From NCBI GenBank assembly GCA_900105225.1, contig LT629764.1, forward strand, positions 4,794,501-4,858,500: a DNA stretch of 64,000 nucleotides. Reading direction: 5' to 3'. This stretch comes from Paenibacillaceae bacterium GAS479. Its GTDB lineage: Bacteria; Bacillota; Bacilli; Paenibacillales; Paenibacillaceae. The position numbers and the translations under genes were made by a program. Position 1 is the stretch's first letter. The number at the start of each line of letters is the position of its first letter. Positions 715 to 62,054 of the stretch are shown one piece after another. The notes beneath the pieces are model-generated. The model did no database searches. It was not told the DNA's origin and worked only from the letters and a program-made list of their open reading frames with translations.

Positions 715-1503
715 ATGGAGTTATTTACGCAAGGATTTCCTGTTTTTCTGTTGATTTTTTGTCGAATTACTTCCTTTTTTGTCGTAGTCCCCGTGTTCTC
801 AGCCCGGACTGTTCCGGCAAGGTTCAAAGTAGGGATCGGTTTTTTTGTGTCTTATCTCGTCTTTTTAACTTATGGAACGACGAAGCAGATTACACCTAAC
901 GCAACCTACCTGCTGACAATTGTGCAAGAAATCATGGTAGGACTGCTGCTTGGTTTTATCGTTTATCTGTTTTTTACGGTCGTGCAGACGGCCGGAGCAC
1001 TCATTGACCTTCAAGTTGGTTTTGCCATGGCGAATGTTGTGGACCCGCTGACAGGTATTTCCGCTCCGATCACGGGCAACTTCAAATACATGGTGCTGTT
1101 GCTGCTGTTCCTGACGATGAATGGCCATCTTTACCTTCTGCAAGCCTTGATGAACAGTTATCAATGGATTCCGCTCGAACTGAACATCTATACCTATATA
1201 GCGGACGGGACGATTTCTGAATTTCTAGTCAAAGGGTTTTCGCAGTCTTTTCTACTGGCGGTTCAGATTGCAGCTCCAATCATGGTGGCCATGTTCCTGA
1301 CGGATGTAGGTTTGGGCTTTCTGGCTCGAACAGCTCCGCAATACAATGTGTTCGTCATCGGAATGCCGCTTAAAATCCTGCTAGGCTTTCTGCTGCTGGT
1401 GCTGCTGATGCCGTCGATGAGCGTCTTGTTCGGACATTTATTTTCCTTAATGTTCGATTTTCTGGGCGAGTTTTTCGGAGCGATCCAGGGCGGGACCGAC
1501 TGA
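715..1503 (+). CDS. fliR: Flagellar export protein FliR
   Basis: A 262-residue, very hydrophobic protein with about six predicted membrane segments, beginning MELFTQGFPVFLLIFCRITS as FliR proteins do. It completes the FliPQR export gate through which flagellar subunits cross the membrane. The GFAMANVVDPLTG stretch (about residues 102-114) is a conserved FliR feature. The ribosome binding site (GAGG at 709-712) is very close to the ATG and weak, so translation probably depends on coupling to fliQ eight bases upstream. Length is normal for the family (about 255-265 aa). Confidence 0.95.
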   Translation: MELFTQGFPVFLLIFCRITSFFVVVPVFSARTVPARFKVGIGFFVSYLVFLTYGTTKQITPNATYLLTIVQEIMVGLLLGFIVYLFFTVVQTAGALIDLQVGFAMANVVDPLTGISAPITGNFKYMVLLLLFLTMNGHLYLLQALMNSYQWIPLELNIYTYIADGTISEFLVKGFSQSFLLAVQIAAPIMVAMFLTDVGLGFLARTAPQYNVFVIGMPLKILLGFLLLVLLMPSMSVLFGHLFSLMFDFLGEFFGAIQGGTD

Positions 1504-1523
1504 TCGGAAGGAGGATGAGAGCG

Positions 1524-2621
1524 ATGTCCAGGCTGCGTTATAGAGTAGACCTCCAGTTATTTAATGGAGAAAAGACGGAAGACGCAACTCCTAAGAAAAA
1601 GCAGGAGGCCAGAGACAAGGGTCAGGTTGCCAAAACTCCTGAGCTTCCCGGAGCTTTTATTATCCTGTTTGTATTCGCTAGCTTTTATATGCTGGGTGGA
1701 TTCTACAAGGAAAGAATCTATCGTTTGTTCGGCAGCCTGTTCAACAGCTGGCTGACGATGGACCTTACGGATGGGAACGTAATGTCGCTGTTCTACGACA
1801 TTATGATTCAGCTGTTGATTCTTCTCTCGCCAATTTTGCTGCTTGCCTTCCTGGCCGCGCTTCTGTTCAATTACGCACAGGTTGGATTCCTGTTGGCTAC
1901 GGAGCCGATAACACCGGATCTGAAAAAGCTTGATCCCATTAAAGGCATGCAAAATATATTTTCTATGCGCTCGGTTGTCGAGTTTTTCAAAAGCATTATA
2001 AAGCTTGTTGTAGTCGGTGTCGTCGTTTTCATGGCAATTTGGGGGGAATGGGACCGGATTCTTCAGCTCGGACTTGTACCAATTGAAGGGATCTTTGCCT
2101 TTACATCGAGCCTGACGTTGAAGATTGGAATGCAATTCGCTGTGCTTCTTGTCGTTATCGCGGTGCTGGACTACATCTATCAACGCTACGAATTCGAAAA
2201 GAGCCTGCGCATGTCCTTTCAGGACATCAAGGACGAGTATGTGAAGACCGAAGGTAATCCTCTCATCAAAGGCAAGATCAAGGAGCGTCAGCGCAAAATG
2301 GCTCTGCAGCGCATGATGCAGGAGATTCCGAAGGCGGATGTGGTCATAACCAATCCTACCCACTACGCTATTGCCATCAAGTATGACGGCAGCAAAATGC
2401 AAGCGCCGGTCATTTTGGCCAAGGGCATGGATTATGTTGCTCTGCGAATCAAGGAAATTGCCAAAGAGAATGGTGTATTGACCATGGAGAACAGGCCGCT
2501 GGCTAGAGCCCTGTACGATCGCACTGAAATTGGCGATACGATACCGGCAGATCTGTTTCAAGCGGTCGCAGAAGTACTGGCCTATGTGTACAAGCTGAAG
2601 GGCCGCAGCAAATCATCCTAA
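1524..2621 (+). CDS. flhB: Flagellar export switch protein FlhB
   Basis: A 365-residue FlhB with an N-terminal cytoplasmic stretch (DLQLFNGEKTEDATPKKK), four transmembrane helices and a C-terminal cytoplasmic domain. The autocleavage motif NPTH is at about residues 277-280 (within VVITNPTHYAIAIKYD); cleavage between N and P switches export specificity from rod/hook to filament substrates. An in-frame ATG lies at 1515, but it directly abuts the GGAGG at 1510-1514, so the ATG at 1524, nine bases downstream, is chosen. It follows fliR and precedes flhA, the normal fla/che operon order. Confidence 0.95.
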   Translation: MSRLRYRVDLQLFNGEKTEDATPKKKQEARDKGQVAKTPELPGAFIILFVFASFYMLGGFYKERIYRLFGSLFNSWLTMDLTDGNVMSLFYDIMIQLLILLSPILLLAFLAALLFNYAQVGFLLATEPITPDLKKLDPIKGMQNIFSMRSVVEFFKSIIKLVVVGVVVFMAIWGEWDRILQLGLVPIEGIFAFTSSLTLKIGMQFAVLLVVIAVLDYIYQRYEFEKSLRMSFQDIKDEYVKTEGNPLIKGKIKERQRKMALQRMMQEIPKADVVITNPTHYAIAIKYDGSKMQAPVILAKGMDYVALRIKEIAKENGVLTMENRPLARALYDRTEIGDTIPADLFQAVAEVLAYVYKLKGRSKSS

Positions 2622-19783: not shown

Positions 19784-19794
19784 AACGTACCGAG

Positions 19795-19945
19795 CCATAT
19801 GGATGTGATGCCTTCTTGGGCAGCTAGTCCGTATGGGATGGAACTATGCGGATGATCCCGATGAGGGATGCATTCTAGAATGATTTTGCATCCGCTGTGC
19901 ATGAGCGGCCCCTCCCTTACAGGTGGGGGTTTGCCTGCATCAGGC
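19795..19945 (+). other. Structured intergenic region between frr and uppS
   Basis: Several inverted repeats lie in this gene-free stretch: CCATATGG (19795-19802) with CCGTATGG (19829-19836); GGATGCA (19866-19872) with TGCATCC (19887-19893) enclosing part of the 12-bp palindrome CATTCTAGAATG (19871-19882); CCCC (19909-19912) with GGGG near 19925; and GCCTG-CAT-CAGGC (19933-19945). There is no T-run, so simple termination is unlikely; a structured uppS leader is inferred. Confidence 0.5.
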
Positions 19946-25653: not shown

Positions 25654-25742
25654 CATTCGGGGGTAGTAAGCGAAATCCGCATGCGGAAGCGAGCTGCCGT
25701 TTCCATAACAAGCGGCGGTCAAATAAGTTGAACTGTAAACGG

Positions 25743-25806
25743 ACGAGGAAGCGGAGCGAGCCTTGGACAAGCCCAACGACACCCGTCCTTATGAACAGGT
25801 GTCGTT
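25743..25806 (+). repeat. First copy of 20-nt module followed by a hairpin
   Basis: The 20-nt segment at 25743-25762 recurs at 25872-25891 with one difference (acgaggaagcggagcg core). Thirteen bases after it, AACGACACC (25775-25783) pairs with GGTGTCGTT (25798-25806) in a perfect 9-bp stem with a 14-nt loop. No gene is visible here. Confidence 0.65.
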
Positions 25807-25871
25807 TGATATAGAACTACGGAAATGAGGCCGATAAGGCTATCATTCTATACAAGGACTAGAGAAATAAC

Positions 25872-26003
25872 ACGAGGAAGCGGAGCGAACCGGCCTTCTG
25901 GAGAAGCAACGCGTTCGCCTTTGTAGGCGGATTCCCCCCTTAGAGGGGGTAGGGAAATCAGGGAATCCGACTACAACAGCGATCGGAAGAAGGACCGGTT
26001 CGC
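25872..26003 (+). repeat. Second module copy leading into a ~120-nt multi-helix hairpin upstream of polC
   Basis: Bases 25885-25899 (GCGAACCGG plus CCTTCT) pair with 25988-26003 (AGAAGG, bulged A, CCGGTTCGC) over 15 bp. Inside, TTGTAG and CGGATTCCC (25921-25936) pair with GGGAATCCG and CTACAA (25961-25976), one mismatch, and the apex has CCCCC/GGGGG (25935-25949). The element looks like a mobile palindromic repeat or a structured RNA; no coding capacity is apparent. The remaining gene-free DNA (25654-25742 and 26004-26115) shows nothing I can name. Confidence 0.7.
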
Positions 26004-32918: not shown

Positions 32919-35730
32919 ACCACAAGACGGTAAAGAAGGCAAAGAGAAGCTTCGCGTGTACGAATATGCGAAGTCCCTTAACATGAGTAGCAAGGAAATC
33001 ATAACGATTCTTAAACGGCTAGATACACCTGTCAACAATCACATGAGTGTGATGGAGTCTGGCATGGTGAGCAAGGTGGAAGGTTTCTTCCGCGACATCA
33101 AAGCGAACGCCGCAGCTAAGAGGGCACAAGGGAATACGCAGGCCAACACGACCGCGACCCGCCCAGCCGAGAAGCGGCCGGAGCAACAAGGAGTGCATAC
33201 TATTCCACGTCAAGAGCAATCCCAACCTACAAACCAACAGGATCGACAGGTGACTATGAATACGACAACGAACAACCAAGGAAGCAACAGCACAGAGCAG
33301 CGCCCTTCCCAAGGCAGCGCGCAAGGACGCGGTCCCGCACCAAGCGGCGGCCAACCTAGAAGTGGTGGCCAAGGTGGCGGAGGCCGTCCGCAAGGCCAAG
33401 GCAGTGGATACGGTGGCAATCGTCCAGCAGGTCAAAGCGGCGGAAGCCGTCCAGCAGGTCAAGGCGGCGGAAGTCGTCCAGCAGGTCAAGGCGGCGGAAG
33501 CCGTCCGGCAGGTCAAAGCGGCGGATACGGCGGTAATCGTCCAGCAGGCCAAGGTGGCGCAAGCCGTCCAGCAGGCCAAGGTGGCGGGTACGGCGGAAGT
33601 CGTCCGGCAGGCCAAGGCGGCGGAAGCCGTCCTCCAGGTCAAGGCGGCGGATACGGCGGCGCTCGTCCGCAAGGACAGAGCGGCCCATCCGCAGGAGCAG
33701 CTCCGCGCGGCGAAAGCCGTAGCACAGCCCCAGCTCCACGTACGTTCGGCGAGAACAAGCCGGCCGGCGGCGCAAGAACTGACTTCAACCGCAGCGGCCA
33801 AGGTGGCGGCGCGGGACGCAGTGGCGGTCCTGGCGGTGCAGGTGCGAACCGTCGCGGTGGAGGTAAACCAGGCGGCCAAAACGGTCGTTTCGATGATCGC
33901 GGTGGTAGCTTCAGAAATCGCGGCAAAAACGGACGCGGCAAAAGTCAGCAGCCTCCGCGCGAGAAAATCGACAACACGCCTAAGAAAATTATTGTCCGCG
34001 GCAACATGACCGTGGCTGAGCTCGCTAAGCTGCTCCATAAGGACGCTTCCGAGGTCATCAAAAAGCTTATTTCCATGGGCGTCATGGCAACGATCAACCA
34101 GGAACTTGATATCGAAACGATCCAACTTGTCGCTTCCGAGTTCAAAGTTGAGGAAGTTGAGATCAAAATCCCTGTCGAAGAGGACGATTTCGAGACAGTG
34201 GAAGAGAAAGACAACGAAGAGGATCTTCAGTCCCGTGCTCCAGTTGTAACGATTATGGGTCACGTCGATCACGGTAAAACGACGCTTCTTGATGCCATTC
34301 GCTCCACGAACGTTACAAGTGGCGAAGCAGGCGGCATCACGCAGCATATCGGTGCTTACCAAGTCGAGATCAACAACAAAAAAATTACGTTCCTGGATAC
34401 CCCGGGCCACGAAGCGTTCACGATGATGCGTGCTCGCGGAGCCGAGGTAACGGACATTACGATTATCGTTGTTGCTGCGGATGACGGCGTTATGCCACAA
34501 ACGGTAGAAGCAATCAGCCATGCGAAAGCAGCTAAGGTGCCGATTATCGTAGCGGTCAACAAAATCGACAAGCCGGACGCTAATCCGGATACGATCAAAC
34601 AAGAGCTTACCAAGTATGAGCTTGTACCTGAAGAGTGGGGCGGCGACACGATTTTTGTCAACGTATCCGCGAAACAGCGTACCAATCTTGAAGAGCTCCT
34701 GGAGATGATCCTGCTCGTAGCTGAGGTCAACGATTACAAGGCGAACCCGAACAAGCGCGCTCGCGGCACCGTCCTCGAGGCCGAGCTGGACAAAGGCAAG
34801 GGCCCAATTGCTCGTGTACTCGTACAGCACGGTACGCTCAAGATCGGCGATGCTTTTGTAGCCGGTAATTCCTTCGGACGTATTCGCGCCATGGTCAACG
34901 ACAAGGGACGTCGTCTCAAAGAAGCTGATCCTTCTACACCGGTTGAGATCACGGGCTTGACTGAGGTGCCAAAAGCTGGCGACCCGTTCATGGTATTCGA
35001 AGATGAGCGCAAAGCTCGTGCCATTTCCGAACGTCGCTCCATCAAGCAGCGCCAATCGCAGATGGGCGCGAACTCCCGCGTAACGCTGGATGATCTTTAC
35101 AAGCACATCACAGAAGGCGAGATCAAGGACCTCAACGTCATCATCAAGGCTGACGTTCAAGGCTCGCTGGAAGCTCTCAAAGGCTCCCTTGAGAAAATCG
35201 AGGTTGAAGGTGTGCGCGTTAAGAGTATTCACAGCGGCGTAGGCGCGATTACGGAATCCGATATCGCTCTTGCCTCGGCTTCCAACGCAATCGTGATCGG
35301 CTTCAACGTACGTCCTGAGATTCAGGCGGCTGTAGCGGCTGAGCAAGAAAAAGTCGATGTGCGTCTGCATAACATCATCTACAACGTAATTGAAGAAATC
35401 GAGCAAGCAATGAAAGGCATGCTGGATCCAATCTTCAAGGAAGTTGTTACCGGCCACGCGGAAGTGCGTAACTTGTTCAAAGTGAGCAAAGTGGGCACGA
35501 TTGCCGGCTGTATGATTATCGACGGCAAAATCGCACGTTCTTCCGAAGCTCGCGTCATTCGTGCCGGCATTGTCCTGCATCAGGGCAAGATCGATACGCT
35601 CAAGCGCTTCAAGGATGATGTGAAAGAAGTTTCACAAGGTTATGAATGCGGCATTACCCTGGAGAAATTCAATGATCTTCAAGAAGGCGACATCATTGAA
35701 GCTTTCGCCCAGGAGAAGGTAGAACGTTAA
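32911..35730 (+). CDS. infB: Translation initiation factor IF-2 with Gly-rich repeat region
   Basis: A 939-residue IF-2, the GTPase that brings initiator tRNA to the ribosome. The N-terminus has the IF2-N helical motif ([18 protein letters not shown]), followed at about residues 125-340 by a Gly/Arg/Gln/Ser/Pro-rich low-complexity region with tandem RPAGQGG units. A second IF2-N motif is at ~355-410. The G domain starts around 445, with [12 protein letters not shown] at residue 450, DTPGHE, and NKIDKPD; domains II-IV complete it. The TTG at 32911, eight bases after GGAGG, overlaps the ylxQ stop. The C-terminal two thirds are highly conserved. Confidence 0.97.
33361..33690 (+). repeat. In-frame 27/36-bp repeats within infB
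   Basis: Degenerate DNA repeats encode alternating GGSRPAGQG (27 bp) and [12 protein letters not shown] (36 bp) units, residues about 151-260 of IF-2. The reading frame is kept through all copies, and the copies differ mainly at third codon positions. Confidence 0.85.
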
Positions 35731-47925: not shown

Positions 47926-48798
47926 ATGGATTTTGGCAGACTTATTACAGCAATGGCTACTCCTTTCGCTCCAGATGGCGCGGTAGACTGGGACACAACA
48001 GGACGTTTAATCGACCATTTGATTGACGATCAGCGCACGGATTCGATTGTGGTGAGCGGTACGACGGGCGAATCACCGACGTTGACCGACGAAGAGAAAG
48101 TGGAGCTGTTCCGTTTCGCTGTTAAACACAGTGCGGGACGCGCTCGTATCATTGCCGGCACCGGCAGCAATCATACGGCTCATTCGATTCATTTGACCCA
48201 AGCCGCCGAGAAGGCGGGTGTAGATGGTATCCTGCTTGTGGTGCCTTACTACAACAAGCCGAGCCAAGAAGGAATGTATCAGCATTTTAAGGCGATAGCC
48301 GAATCCACTTCTTTGCCTATTATGCTGTACAATGTGCCGACACGTACGGTGTCAAGCATGGATGCGGCTACTACGGTTCGTCTGGCTCAGGATGTGCCTA
48401 ATATTGCTGCGACCAAGGAATGCCACTCTCTAGATCATGTTGCTGAAATCATTAGCGGAGCGCCGGACAGCTTCCGGGTTTATACCGGAGACGACAGCGT
48501 CGCTCTACCGGCGATTGCCGTTGGTGCCTATGGCGTCGTCAGTGTCGCTTCCCATGTAGCAGGTGCCCAAATGAAAAATATGATCGAAGCTTACTTAGAA
48601 GGACGTAATGTGGAGGCTGCTGCGTTGCATCGCCGCTTGCTGCCGCTGTTCAATGGCTTATTCGCGGCTCCGAATCCGGTATTATTGAAGAAAGCGCTCG
48701 AACTGCAGGGATTGCCGGTTGGAGGCGTGCGTCTGCCACTGGTAGCCGCCGACGAAAAAGAAACTGCTGCCCTAGCCGAGTTGTTAAAAGGGCTTTAA
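47926..48798 (+). CDS. dapA: 4-hydroxy-tetrahydrodipicolinate synthase
   Basis: A 290-residue class I aldolase-type enzyme condensing pyruvate with aspartate semialdehyde. Signatures: GTTGESPTLTDEEK near residue 45-58, GVDGILLVVPYYNKPSQEG, YNVPTRTV, and the Schiff-base lysine K164 in AATKECHS. AGGAGG precedes the ATG by nine bases. Its product feeds DpaA/B during sporulation and cell-wall diaminopimelate in growth. Confidence 0.97.
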   Translation: MDFGRLITAMATPFAPDGAVDWDTTGRLIDHLIDDQRTDSIVVSGTTGESPTLTDEEKVELFRFAVKHSAGRARIIAGTGSNHTAHSIHLTQAAEKAGVDGILLVVPYYNKPSQEGMYQHFKAIAESTSLPIMLYNVPTRTVSSMDAATTVRLAQDVPNIAATKECHSLDHVAEIISGAPDSFRVYTGDDSVALPAIAVGAYGVVSVASHVAGAQMKNMIEAYLEGRNVEAAALHRRLLPLFNGLFAAPNPVLLKKALELQGLPVGGVRLPLVAADEKETAALAELLKGL

Positions 48799-48820
48799 GG
48801 TAGAATAGTCATGTTATGTG

Positions 48821-48856
48821 CCGGCTCCTCGTCTGGGGGCCGGTTTATTTTGTTTT
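48821..48856 (+). terminator. Terminator after dapA
   Basis: CCGGCTCC (48821-48828) with GGGGGCCGG (ending 48843), one G-U, followed by TTTATTTTGTTTT. The repeat array starts immediately after. Confidence 0.85.
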
Positions 48857-48857
48857 G

Positions 48858-49188
48858 ACGTTATCCCATCTCGGATTTCCTGCGCATACGTACGTCCTCA
48901 AGTGAGGACGAAATCGTAATGCTTTTCATCTTAGAAGGAAACTGAACGTTATCCCATCTCAGATTTCCTACGCATACGTACGTCCTCAAGTGAGGACGAA
49001 ATCGTATTGCTTTTCATCTTAGAAGGAAATTGAACGTTATCCTATCTCAGATTTCCTGCGCATACGTACGTCCTCAAGTGAGGACGAAATCGTATTGCTT
49101 TTCATCTTAGAAGGAAACTGAACGTTATCCCATCTCAGATTTCCTGCGCATACGTACGTCCTCAAGTGAGGACGAAATCGTATTGCTT
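48858..49188 (+). repeat. Tandem array of 3.75 copies of an 88-bp unit
   Basis: Units start at 48858, 48946, 49034 and 49122, an exact 88-base period; the last stops at ~49188. Copies differ at only a few positions. Each has CGTCCTC-AAGT-GAGGACG (for example 48981-48998), extended by GCATACG with CGTATTGC (one bulge), and a second hairpin GGAAACTGA with TCAG-A-TTTCC across the unit junction. No reading frame runs through it. The rest of the 592-base gene-free gap holds a terminator on the left and the RNase J promoter and leader on the right. Confidence 0.95.
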
Positions 49189-49194
49189 GCTGGC

Positions 49195-49224
49195 TTGTGT
49201 TCCATCTTTTGCATCATGTATAAT
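49195..49224 (+). promoter_or_regulatory. Predicted promoter of RNase J gene
   Basis: TATAAT (49219-49224) with a weak TTGTGT (49195-49200) 18 bases upstream, just after the repeat array. A ~160-nt leader would follow. Confidence 0.5.
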
Positions 49225-49390: not shown

Positions 49391-51070
49391 TTGTCAAAAA
49401 AGAATATCCAGGACAAGCTGCTTGTCTTCGCCCTTGGCGGCGTAGGCGAGATCGGCAAAAACATGTATGTCATCCAATACGGGAATGACATTGTCGTTGT
49501 AGACTCCGGCTTAAAATTTCCGGAGGAAGACATGCTCGGAATCGACATCGTCATTCCAGACATTACTTATCTGACCGAGAATCGCGACAAAGTTCGCGGC
49601 ATTATTATTACCCACGGTCATGAAGACCATATCGGCGGCTTGCCATATGTGCTTCGTCATCTGAATGTCCCTGTGTACGCGACTAAACTTACACTCGGAC
49701 TGATCGAAGGTAAGCTGAAGGAAGCTGGACTGCTCGGCGAGACGAAGCGCATTCTCATCAATGCGGACTCCGTACTCGAGCTCGGAGCGATTACAGCGAG
49801 CTTCTTCAAGACGAATCACAGTATTCCGGATTCCGTTGGTGTATGCCTTGATACTCCGGAAGGCACTATTGTGCATACAGGTGACTTCAAGTTTGACTTT
49901 ACCCCGGTCAACGACCAATACGCGGATCTGCAGCGCATCGCTGAAATCGGCAAGCGCGGCGTACTAGCTTTGCTGTCGGATAGCACGAATGCCGAGCGCC
50001 CAGGAATGACTCCTTCGGAGAGCAATGTCGGCGTCGAGCTGATAGAAATTTTCCGCAAGTCCCAACAACGCGTAGTCGTAGCAACCTTCGCCTCCAATGT
50101 GCATCGGATTCAACAGGTGTTCAATGCGGCAATGGCAACCAAACGCAAAGTTGCTATCGTTGGACGGAGTATGGTGAACGTAGTAACGATTGCCGGTGAG
50201 CTTGGCTACCTGAACATTCCGGAAGGCATGATCATCGAGCCGGAAGAAGTGAACAAGATGGCTTCTGATCGCGTTGTTGTTCTGTGCACAGGCAGCCAAG
50301 GCGAGCCGATGTCCGCTCTGACTCGCATGGCTCGTTCCACCCACCGCAAGATCGACATCTTGCCGGGAGATACCGTCATCATCGCAGCTACGCCGATTCC
50401 GGGCAATGAACGTGATGTAGGCCGCACAGTGGACGAGTTGTTCCGACTCGGAGCTAATGTTATTTATGGACCAGGCTCTGTGTCTGGCGTCCACGTATCC
50501 GGTCACGGCAGCCAGGAAGAGCTTAAGCTGATGCTCAACCTGATCAAGCCGCAGTACTTCATTCCGATTCATGGTGAATATCGGATGCTCCGTCAGCATG
50601 CCAAGCTTGGTGAAGCGGTTGGCGTCGCTCCAGAAAATATTTTCATTTGCGACATCGGTGATACGGTTGAATTCCAGGGCGGTGTAGGACGCAAAGGCTC
50701 CAAAGTTGCTTCCGGCAACGTTCTGATCGACGGCCTTGGTGTCGGCGATGTAGGTAACATCGTGCTTCGCGACCGCAAGCTGTTGTCCCAAGACGGCATC
50801 CTTGTTGTAGTTGTGACGCTGAGCAAGCAGGACGGTACAATCAAGGCTGGCCCAGACATTATCTCGCGCGGCTTCGTTTATGTTCGCGAGTCCGAGGGGC
50901 TGTTGGATGAAGCTAACCGCATCGTAACGACAACGCTGAACAAGCTGATGAATGACAAAGTTAATGAGTGGGCTTCGCTCAAGACGAATGTCAAGGATGC
51001 GCTCGGTCGCTTCCTGTATGAGCAAACGCGTCGTCGTCCGATGATTCTGCCGATCATCATGGAAGTTTAA
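49391..51070 (+). CDS. rnj: Ribonuclease J
   Basis: A 559-residue metallo-beta-lactamase/beta-CASP nuclease with endo- and 5'-3' exoribonuclease activity. The metal motif is intact: H75-G-H77-E-D79-H80 (THGHEDHIGG), then HTGDFKFDFTP, LLSDSTNAERPG, SGHGSQEELKLML and HGEYRML. By position (after dapA, before tepA) it corresponds to B. subtilis rnjB (RNase J2), but the complete active site and overall sequence look like RNase J1. The start is TTG 49391 after TAGGAGGT. A terminator follows. Confidence 0.95.
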   Translation: MSKKNIQDKLLVFALGGVGEIGKNMYVIQYGNDIVVVDSGLKFPEEDMLGIDIVIPDITYLTENRDKVRGIIITHGHEDHIGGLPYVLRHLNVPVYATKLTLGLIEGKLKEAGLLGETKRILINADSVLELGAITASFFKTNHSIPDSVGVCLDTPEGTIVHTGDFKFDFTPVNDQYADLQRIAEIGKRGVLALLSDSTNAERPGMTPSESNVGVELIEIFRKSQQRVVVATFASNVHRIQQVFNAAMATKRKVAIVGRSMVNVVTIAGELGYLNIPEGMIIEPEEVNKMASDRVVVLCTGSQGEPMSALTRMARSTHRKIDILPGDTVIIAATPIPGNERDVGRTVDELFRLGANVIYGPGSVSGVHVSGHGSQEELKLMLNLIKPQYFIPIHGEYRMLRQHAKLGEAVGVAPENIFICDIGDTVEFQGGVGRKGSKVASGNVLIDGLGVGDVGNIVLRDRKLLSQDGILVVVVTLSKQDGTIKAGPDIISRGFVYVRESEGLLDEANRIVTTTLNKLMNDKVNEWASLKTNVKDALGRFLYEQTRRRPMILPIIMEV

Positions 51071-61885: not shown

Positions 61886-62054
61886 TATGGCTTGACATAC
61901 AACGCATACATCCGCCGCTCCCCGGACGATGAGAGCGTATTGAATGACTCACTACGCGTACGTTTCCTTTGTAAGGTGAGGCCGTATTGCTTGCTGAAAC
62001 CATTTGCCAGCTTCACTCGTCGTATAGCTGATGCCTTCTACGCGCACAATAATT

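Follow-up and report, generated by a model that had tools for sequence, protein, structure and literature searches.

Does the tandem array that lies between dapA and the gene for RNase J regulate the nuclease? The window (the whole 64,000-nucleotide stretch of Paenibacillaceae bacterium GAS479 DNA that was analysed) places a striking repeat right beside this gene. Both open reading frames, dapA at 47926–48798 and RNase J at 49391–51070 (TTG start), are on the forward strand and were named from their translated sequences alone. The intrinsic terminator of dapA (48820–48844, forward strand) has a T-rich tail that reaches the array, and a promoter-like TTGTGT-18-TATAAT upstream of RNase J (49195–49224, forward strand; picked out by eye) lies 6 bases past it. 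The initial annotation had already placed the array after the dapA terminator and before the RNase J promoter, and it went on to propose that the array could modulate the nuclease gene. We arrive at a different answer: in the array, one member of a dispersed two-hairpin repeat family, apparently undescribed so far, has been multiplied locally head to tail, and it has no demonstrated effect on RNase J.

The array itself is as first described. TRF reports a tandem repeat at 48858–49188 (forward strand) with a period of 88, 3.8 copies, 96% matches and 0 indels. Its 3.75 periods start at 48858, 48946, 49034 and 49122, and the list of open reading frames has no long frame across the span. The word "exact" fits the spacing, which is 88 bases throughout, but not the copies, which are 95–99% alike and differ at 1–4 positions each. 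Both strands fold with an energy well under that of shuffled sequences (z −8.0 and −7.6). The exact array sequence has no second site in the 5.52-Mb genome, and all four genomic occurrences of the hairpin CGTCCTC-AAGT-GAGGACG fall inside the array.

One 88-bp period corresponds approximately to one element of ~85 nt carrying two different hairpins. Three covariance models define the family: R1 covers the core of hairpin B only, R2 covers the full element and was built in the window's genus, and R3 was built solely from members outside that genus. The flanks of the core hold a second conserved hairpin on the 5′ side, and the unit is therefore hairpin A, a linker and hairpin B, which is the size of one period. 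In these terms the array consists of one 5′-truncated and three complete elements, all on the forward strand. Element 1 (48863–48924; R2 50.2 bits) is without the 5′ arm of hairpin A. Elements 2 (48928–49012; R2 69.2 bits), 3 (49016–49100; R2 69.1 bits, R3 E 0.0039) and 4 (49104–49188; R2 69.3 bits, R3 E 0.011) are complete, and the end of element 4 coincides exactly with the end of the array. Copies within arrays are much more alike than copies at different loci, so that local amplification is a simple explanation for the tandem copies.

Across the family the elements are intergenic repeats of ~85–97 nt with a constant order: hairpin A, a short linker (TTTCC or TTTCTCGC), hairpin B and then a CTTG end, which is present in 55 of 75 elements of the form found in g13, the genus richest in copies. 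Hairpin A is AT-rich, of TACTAGA...TCTCGTA type in the window's genus and ATATAAG...CTTATAT type in g13. Hairpin B has an outer stem, GCATACG/CGTATTGC or GAAACG/CGTTTC, that encloses an inner CCGTCC...GGACGG. In element 2, hairpin A (48928–48964) pairs ATCTTAGA (48928–48935) with TCTCAGAT (48957–48964), as the sequence and the covariation in alignment A4 indicate. Hairpin B (48972–49010, also identified from sequence and covariation) has an outer stem of GCATACG (48972–48978) and CGTATTGC (49003–49010) with one bulged T, and an inner stem of CGTCCTC (48981–48987) and GAGGACG (48992–48998). The stem that the initial annotation drew across the unit junction does exist, although what the family conserves is the arm ATCTTAGA/TCTCAGAT, which has an invariant T.C mismatch and encloses a variable interior. 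Neither hairpin is followed by a T-run, so the pattern of an intrinsic terminator (GC hairpin plus T-run) is absent. No terminal inverted repeats were seen in alignments A4 and A6, where the ends are not inverted copies of each other.

The family extends well beyond this locus. At E ≤ 1e-4, R2 detects 21 units in the GAS479 genome, spread over about 15 loci, and it has matches in 53 of 250 Paenibacillaceae genomes and in 8 of 19 genera. R1 at E ≤ 0.1 gives 22 matches here and 26 in P. herberti; its apparent restriction to one genus was a limit of sensitivity, as the full model R2 showed. In g13, where the element is 95 nt long, R3 counts at least 67 and at least 33 copies in two complete genomes. 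R3 recovers the window's units weakly (E 0.004 and 0.011) and others of the window's genus strongly (3e-9), so that R2 and R3, built from different genera, each detect the other's elements. A class-wide search matched 23 of 400 genomes, all from the same taxonomic family except one marginal match in another family of the order. Searching eight genomes of the genus with a single unit gave relatives in two other genomes, one at the same dapA–RNase J site and the rest at unrelated sites, some of them also tandem with periods of 89–91. An exact-pattern scan of named genomes matched P. herberti R33 alone. The window holds three further relatives, all weak and decayed: 25769–25853 (reverse strand; R2 24.1 bits, E 0.00097), 19792–19881 (reverse strand; R2 23.4 bits, E 0.0014) and 61937–61992 (forward strand; mostly hairpin B; R2 21.8 bits, E 0.0035; R1 18.2 bits).

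The element does not belong to a catalogue entry that we could find. No Rfam family scores it above the gathering cut-off, and we rejected a known RNA family as its identity. The plasmids and phages searched contained no match, and plasmid or phage cargo was rejected likewise. A literature search found no description of the element in Paenibacillus; subscription papers were mostly outside its scope, and a description could exist there.

Other repeats were seen as well. A composite repeat of ~250 bp embeds the two-hairpin element at window positions 25700–25950 and at loci L061, L066, L070, L078, L080, L082 and L083, with an extra hairpin (TTGTAG..GATTCC / GGAATCC..CTACAA) and then CGAACGCGTTGCTT. 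At L082, in P. herberti, CRISPR-array-like repeats ending CGCTCCCGCACGGGGAGCGAC lie directly 3′ of the element. In genome G006, a single intergenic region (L010, about 1655–1840) contains several copies of a different short dispersed repeat, TTAACGCAACTGAGACGCGCTATT, and of its complement. Nested tandem repeats of 27, 63, 90 and 117 bp at window positions 33367–33684 have a Gly/Gln-rich coding look. Upstream of a RemA-like gene, elements or arrays with differing stem sequences occupy the same place in three congeners (L057, L087 and L092).

Pairing is kept while sequence changes. Among 28 elements of the window's genus (alignment A4), two-sided changes occur in 22 of 27 pairs; the covariation score is 0.255, while shuffled controls score 0.118 and slid ones no more than 0.110, the slid control leaning towards the structure because this was derived from the same sequences as were tested. 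In 24 elements of the 95-nt form (alignment A6), 98% of cells are paired and 7 pairs are two-sided, against 0.7 in shuffles. With 80 elements of that form, in an alignment fitted to the model, there are 14 two-sided pairs. In their orthologous arrays, this genome and P. herberti differ by two paired exchanges, each T-A here and C-G there, one in the arms of hairpin A and one in hairpin B. The truncated element 1 retains a G at the hairpin A 3′-arm position, where P. herberti also has G. Paired exchanges between sister species were also found at L063/L074, L059/L073 and L057/L087. Covariation thus supports the multi-hairpin structured element of the initial annotation, and true compensatory changes are seen against other loci and species. 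The example originally offered was of another kind: CGTAATGC in copy 1 merely swaps the bulged base (T to A) and is not compensatory. That orthologous sites go on pairing points either to selection on the structure or to mutation templated by the hairpins.

Could the array nevertheless be a switch for RNase J? Among the eight congeners, only this genome (3.75 units) and P. herberti (about 1.5) carry an array between dapA and rnj, so copy number at the locus does vary, as had been suggested. The other six have a short unrelated spacer between the terminator and the same rnj promoter. The dapA hairpin and T-run are kept in the congeners without the array, and the promoter-like TTGTGT-18-TATAAT is preserved in all eight and unlisted by the consensus scan. 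Because six congeners keep the rnj promoter without the array, and because the family adjoins many unrelated genes, neither a dedicated RNase J regulator nor the proposed modulation of the nuclease gene is supported. As far as can be read from sequence, the array is probably not a dedicated control element of RNase J, and it is presumably largely passive for rnj.

What many elements do share, above all in g13, is their position relative to terminators. In g13, TTTT lies within 14 nt 5′ of the element in 58 of 80 cases, whereas positions drawn at random from the same loci, intergenic or not, would give 2.2. An A-run, the mirror image, occupies that place in 1 of 75 elements. The 5′ flanks read T-run-AAA, or TC/CC within arrays. 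Adjacency to T-runs is weaker in the window's own genus (10 of 36 against 3.0 expected), which is partly explained by first units that frequently come after decayed copies. In one locus of genome G019 (L265), opposed elements at 1362–1455 (reverse) and 1501–1596 (forward) flank a bidirectional terminator-like palindrome. Genus g6 has a single element, apparently at one orthologous site (L266–L269, L272 and L273), which precedes a ribosome-binding-like AGGAGGAGA with no T-run ahead and is possibly a fixed, co-opted copy.

Orientation is biased too in genome G160. GC skew and gene strand set its origin near 3.6 Mb; relative to that, 60 of 66 copies run in the leading-strand direction, compared with 72% of coding sequence (p 3e-4), which places the hairpin strand on the lagging-strand template. 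GC skew is positive throughout the window, and the array is therefore oriented likewise. The genes flanking elements are unrelated, lie in every orientation and show no evident common class. Moreover, at two G160 sites the element is missing in relatives. The best empty site, in G240, has flanks 94% identical and no clear target duplication; 8 bases (ATCCTTAT) are common to the site and the element, and for that reason it could be a deletion scar.

In g13, adjacency to terminator T-runs, orientation to the replication fork and absence at two sites therefore together resemble the behaviour of small non-autonomous mobile elements. Dispersion, presence or absence, fixed ends (the 5′ arm and the 3′ CTTG) and a precise target speak for mobility, and a single-stranded route is suggested by the hairpins together with the orientation to replication; we infer both mobility as the cause of dispersion and a single-strand route. 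In such a mechanism, an enzyme recognising the hairpins would mobilise the elements in single-stranded form, and they would insert just 3′ of terminator T-runs with the hairpin strand on the lagging-strand template, after which units may be multiplied through slippage or unequal recombination. The joint reading, that the two-hairpin elements are non-autonomous mobile DNA, that the array was locally amplified and that it is passive for rnj, is the one we favour with moderate confidence. Against an inert mobile element stands the lasting pairing at orthologous sites, which suggests some function or pairing-directed mutation. The weaker adjacency in the window's own genus, the imperfect G240 site, the missing Y1 transposase and the lack of copies on the plasmids and phages searched also weigh against this reading.

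Function would be expected if the elements were cis- or trans-acting structured RNAs, with hairpins selected in read-through transcripts for processing, stabilisation or protein binding and an array offering multiple sites. Two-sided pair changes at orthologous loci of sister species fit this, as does co-orientation with the leading strand and hence with most genes. The two forms of the element disagree on the strand: G.U cells outnumber A.C cells in the 95-nt form (32 to 14), but A.C outnumber G.U in the window's genus (57 to 25). The elements stand behind terminators, in all orientations to flanking genes that have no evident class in common, their presence varies among relatives and Rfam has no match; we regard a structured RNA as rather unlikely. 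Alternatively, the elements could be inert remnants whose pairing owes nothing to selection and is maintained by mutation templated on the hairpin (quasipalindrome correction) or by gene conversion inside arrays. Copies within an array are indeed near-identical, and stems are homogenised in each species. However, single-copy orthologues carry paired exchanges too, neither hairpin B's outer stem nor the T.C mismatch changes over wide divergence, and the process would explain covariation, not dispersion, which leaves it with a low probability in our view. The initial annotation had held that a unit found nowhere else, untranscribed and lacking paired substitutions would be a recent neutral duplication; unit relatives and paired substitutions were both found. 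Uniqueness of the exact array sequence in the genome favours a neutral tandem duplication without wider meaning, but the covariance models place this element at numerous loci and in several genera. As a full account a private duplication is refuted by these relatives and is scarcely credible; it holds for the extra copies only.

Which enzyme might move such elements? IS200/IS605 and REP enzymes act on lagging-strand single-stranded DNA (PMC6006769), and a REP/REPIN-like or IS200/IS605-derived element moved in trans by a Y1 (HuH) transposase would account for subterminal hairpins, fixed short ends, no evident terminal inverted repeats and the single-strand type of orientation bias. Yet this genome has no PF01797 (Y1_Tnp) protein despite its 21 strong units. 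Of 8 congeners, 3 have PF01797, with no correspondence to how many elements they carry, and G002 has four matches and zero elements. None of the six Y1_Tnp loci of the window's genus has an R2 or R3 match beside it. A REP/RAYT system was rejected on these grounds, and the Y1 reading as a whole seems unlikely. Group IIC introns use a terminator stem-loop upstream of their insertion site (PMC7923331), and target and strand would fit if a reverse transcriptase of this type placed small structured RNAs at terminators. But by eye we recognised no domain V-like helix, and the ends are unlike intron ends; such retro-mobility is very improbable.

The nearest known kinds are REP/REPIN, BOX and SPRITE. 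Like REP/REPIN–RAYT repeats, the elements are short, intergenic, non-coding hairpin repeats, many per chromosome and likely moved as single-stranded DNA. Where REP repeats consist of one REP or an inverted pair, however, they combine two distinct hairpins in a set order, and membership fails on three tested points: the cognate transposase (no Y1_Tnp gene in the host genome), the flanking of its gene by elements (none in the genus) and the GT[AG]G 5′ foot (GTAG/GTGG), which their 5′ flanks lack. BOX of Streptococcus pneumoniae (PMC3049150) is likewise small, interspersed, structured and modular, and a module may be multi-copy. However, BOX terminal inverted repeats pair within the fold and boxA, boxB and boxC are separate modules, whereas here there is no boxA-boxB(n)-boxC order: the whole two-hairpin element repeats, and it follows terminators. 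SPRITE of S. pneumoniae shares the tie to terminator-like structures, but it resembles a terminator (PMC3049150), and our elements stand behind terminators. Group IIC introns also insert directly downstream of intrinsic terminator stem-loops; an element of ~90 nt in which no intron domains are seen by eye is a different object. Non-autonomous IS200/IS605 derivatives have two subterminal hairpins, a specific left flank and lagging-strand orientation. The elements do have subterminal hairpins at both ends without terminal inverted repeats, and lagging-strand orientation (60 of 66 in G160), but a full-length parent was not found here and the ends are putative cut sites. Classical MITEs differ in their inverted ends, and no target-site duplication is clear at the G160/G240 site, itself imperfect.

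The family is more general than first supposed, and it warns against assuming that a conspicuous array regulates the gene next to it. Paenibacillus is much sequenced, yet a family with at least 33–67 copies per genome (in the two counted), covarying and terminator-preferring, is in neither Rfam nor the literature searched. Its loci are usable for strain typing. We offer tentatively, as a real possibility that falls short of our expectation, the broader reading that small two-hairpin elements throughout the Paenibacillaceae target terminators and move by a route with no known enzyme, or are kept as a post-terminator RNA or DNA module. If the elements are mobile, they would provide a clear system for studying how terminators are located by a 90-nt element that has no terminal repeats, and for identifying the enzyme behind its movement; if they are functional, they would constitute a widespread post-terminator module.
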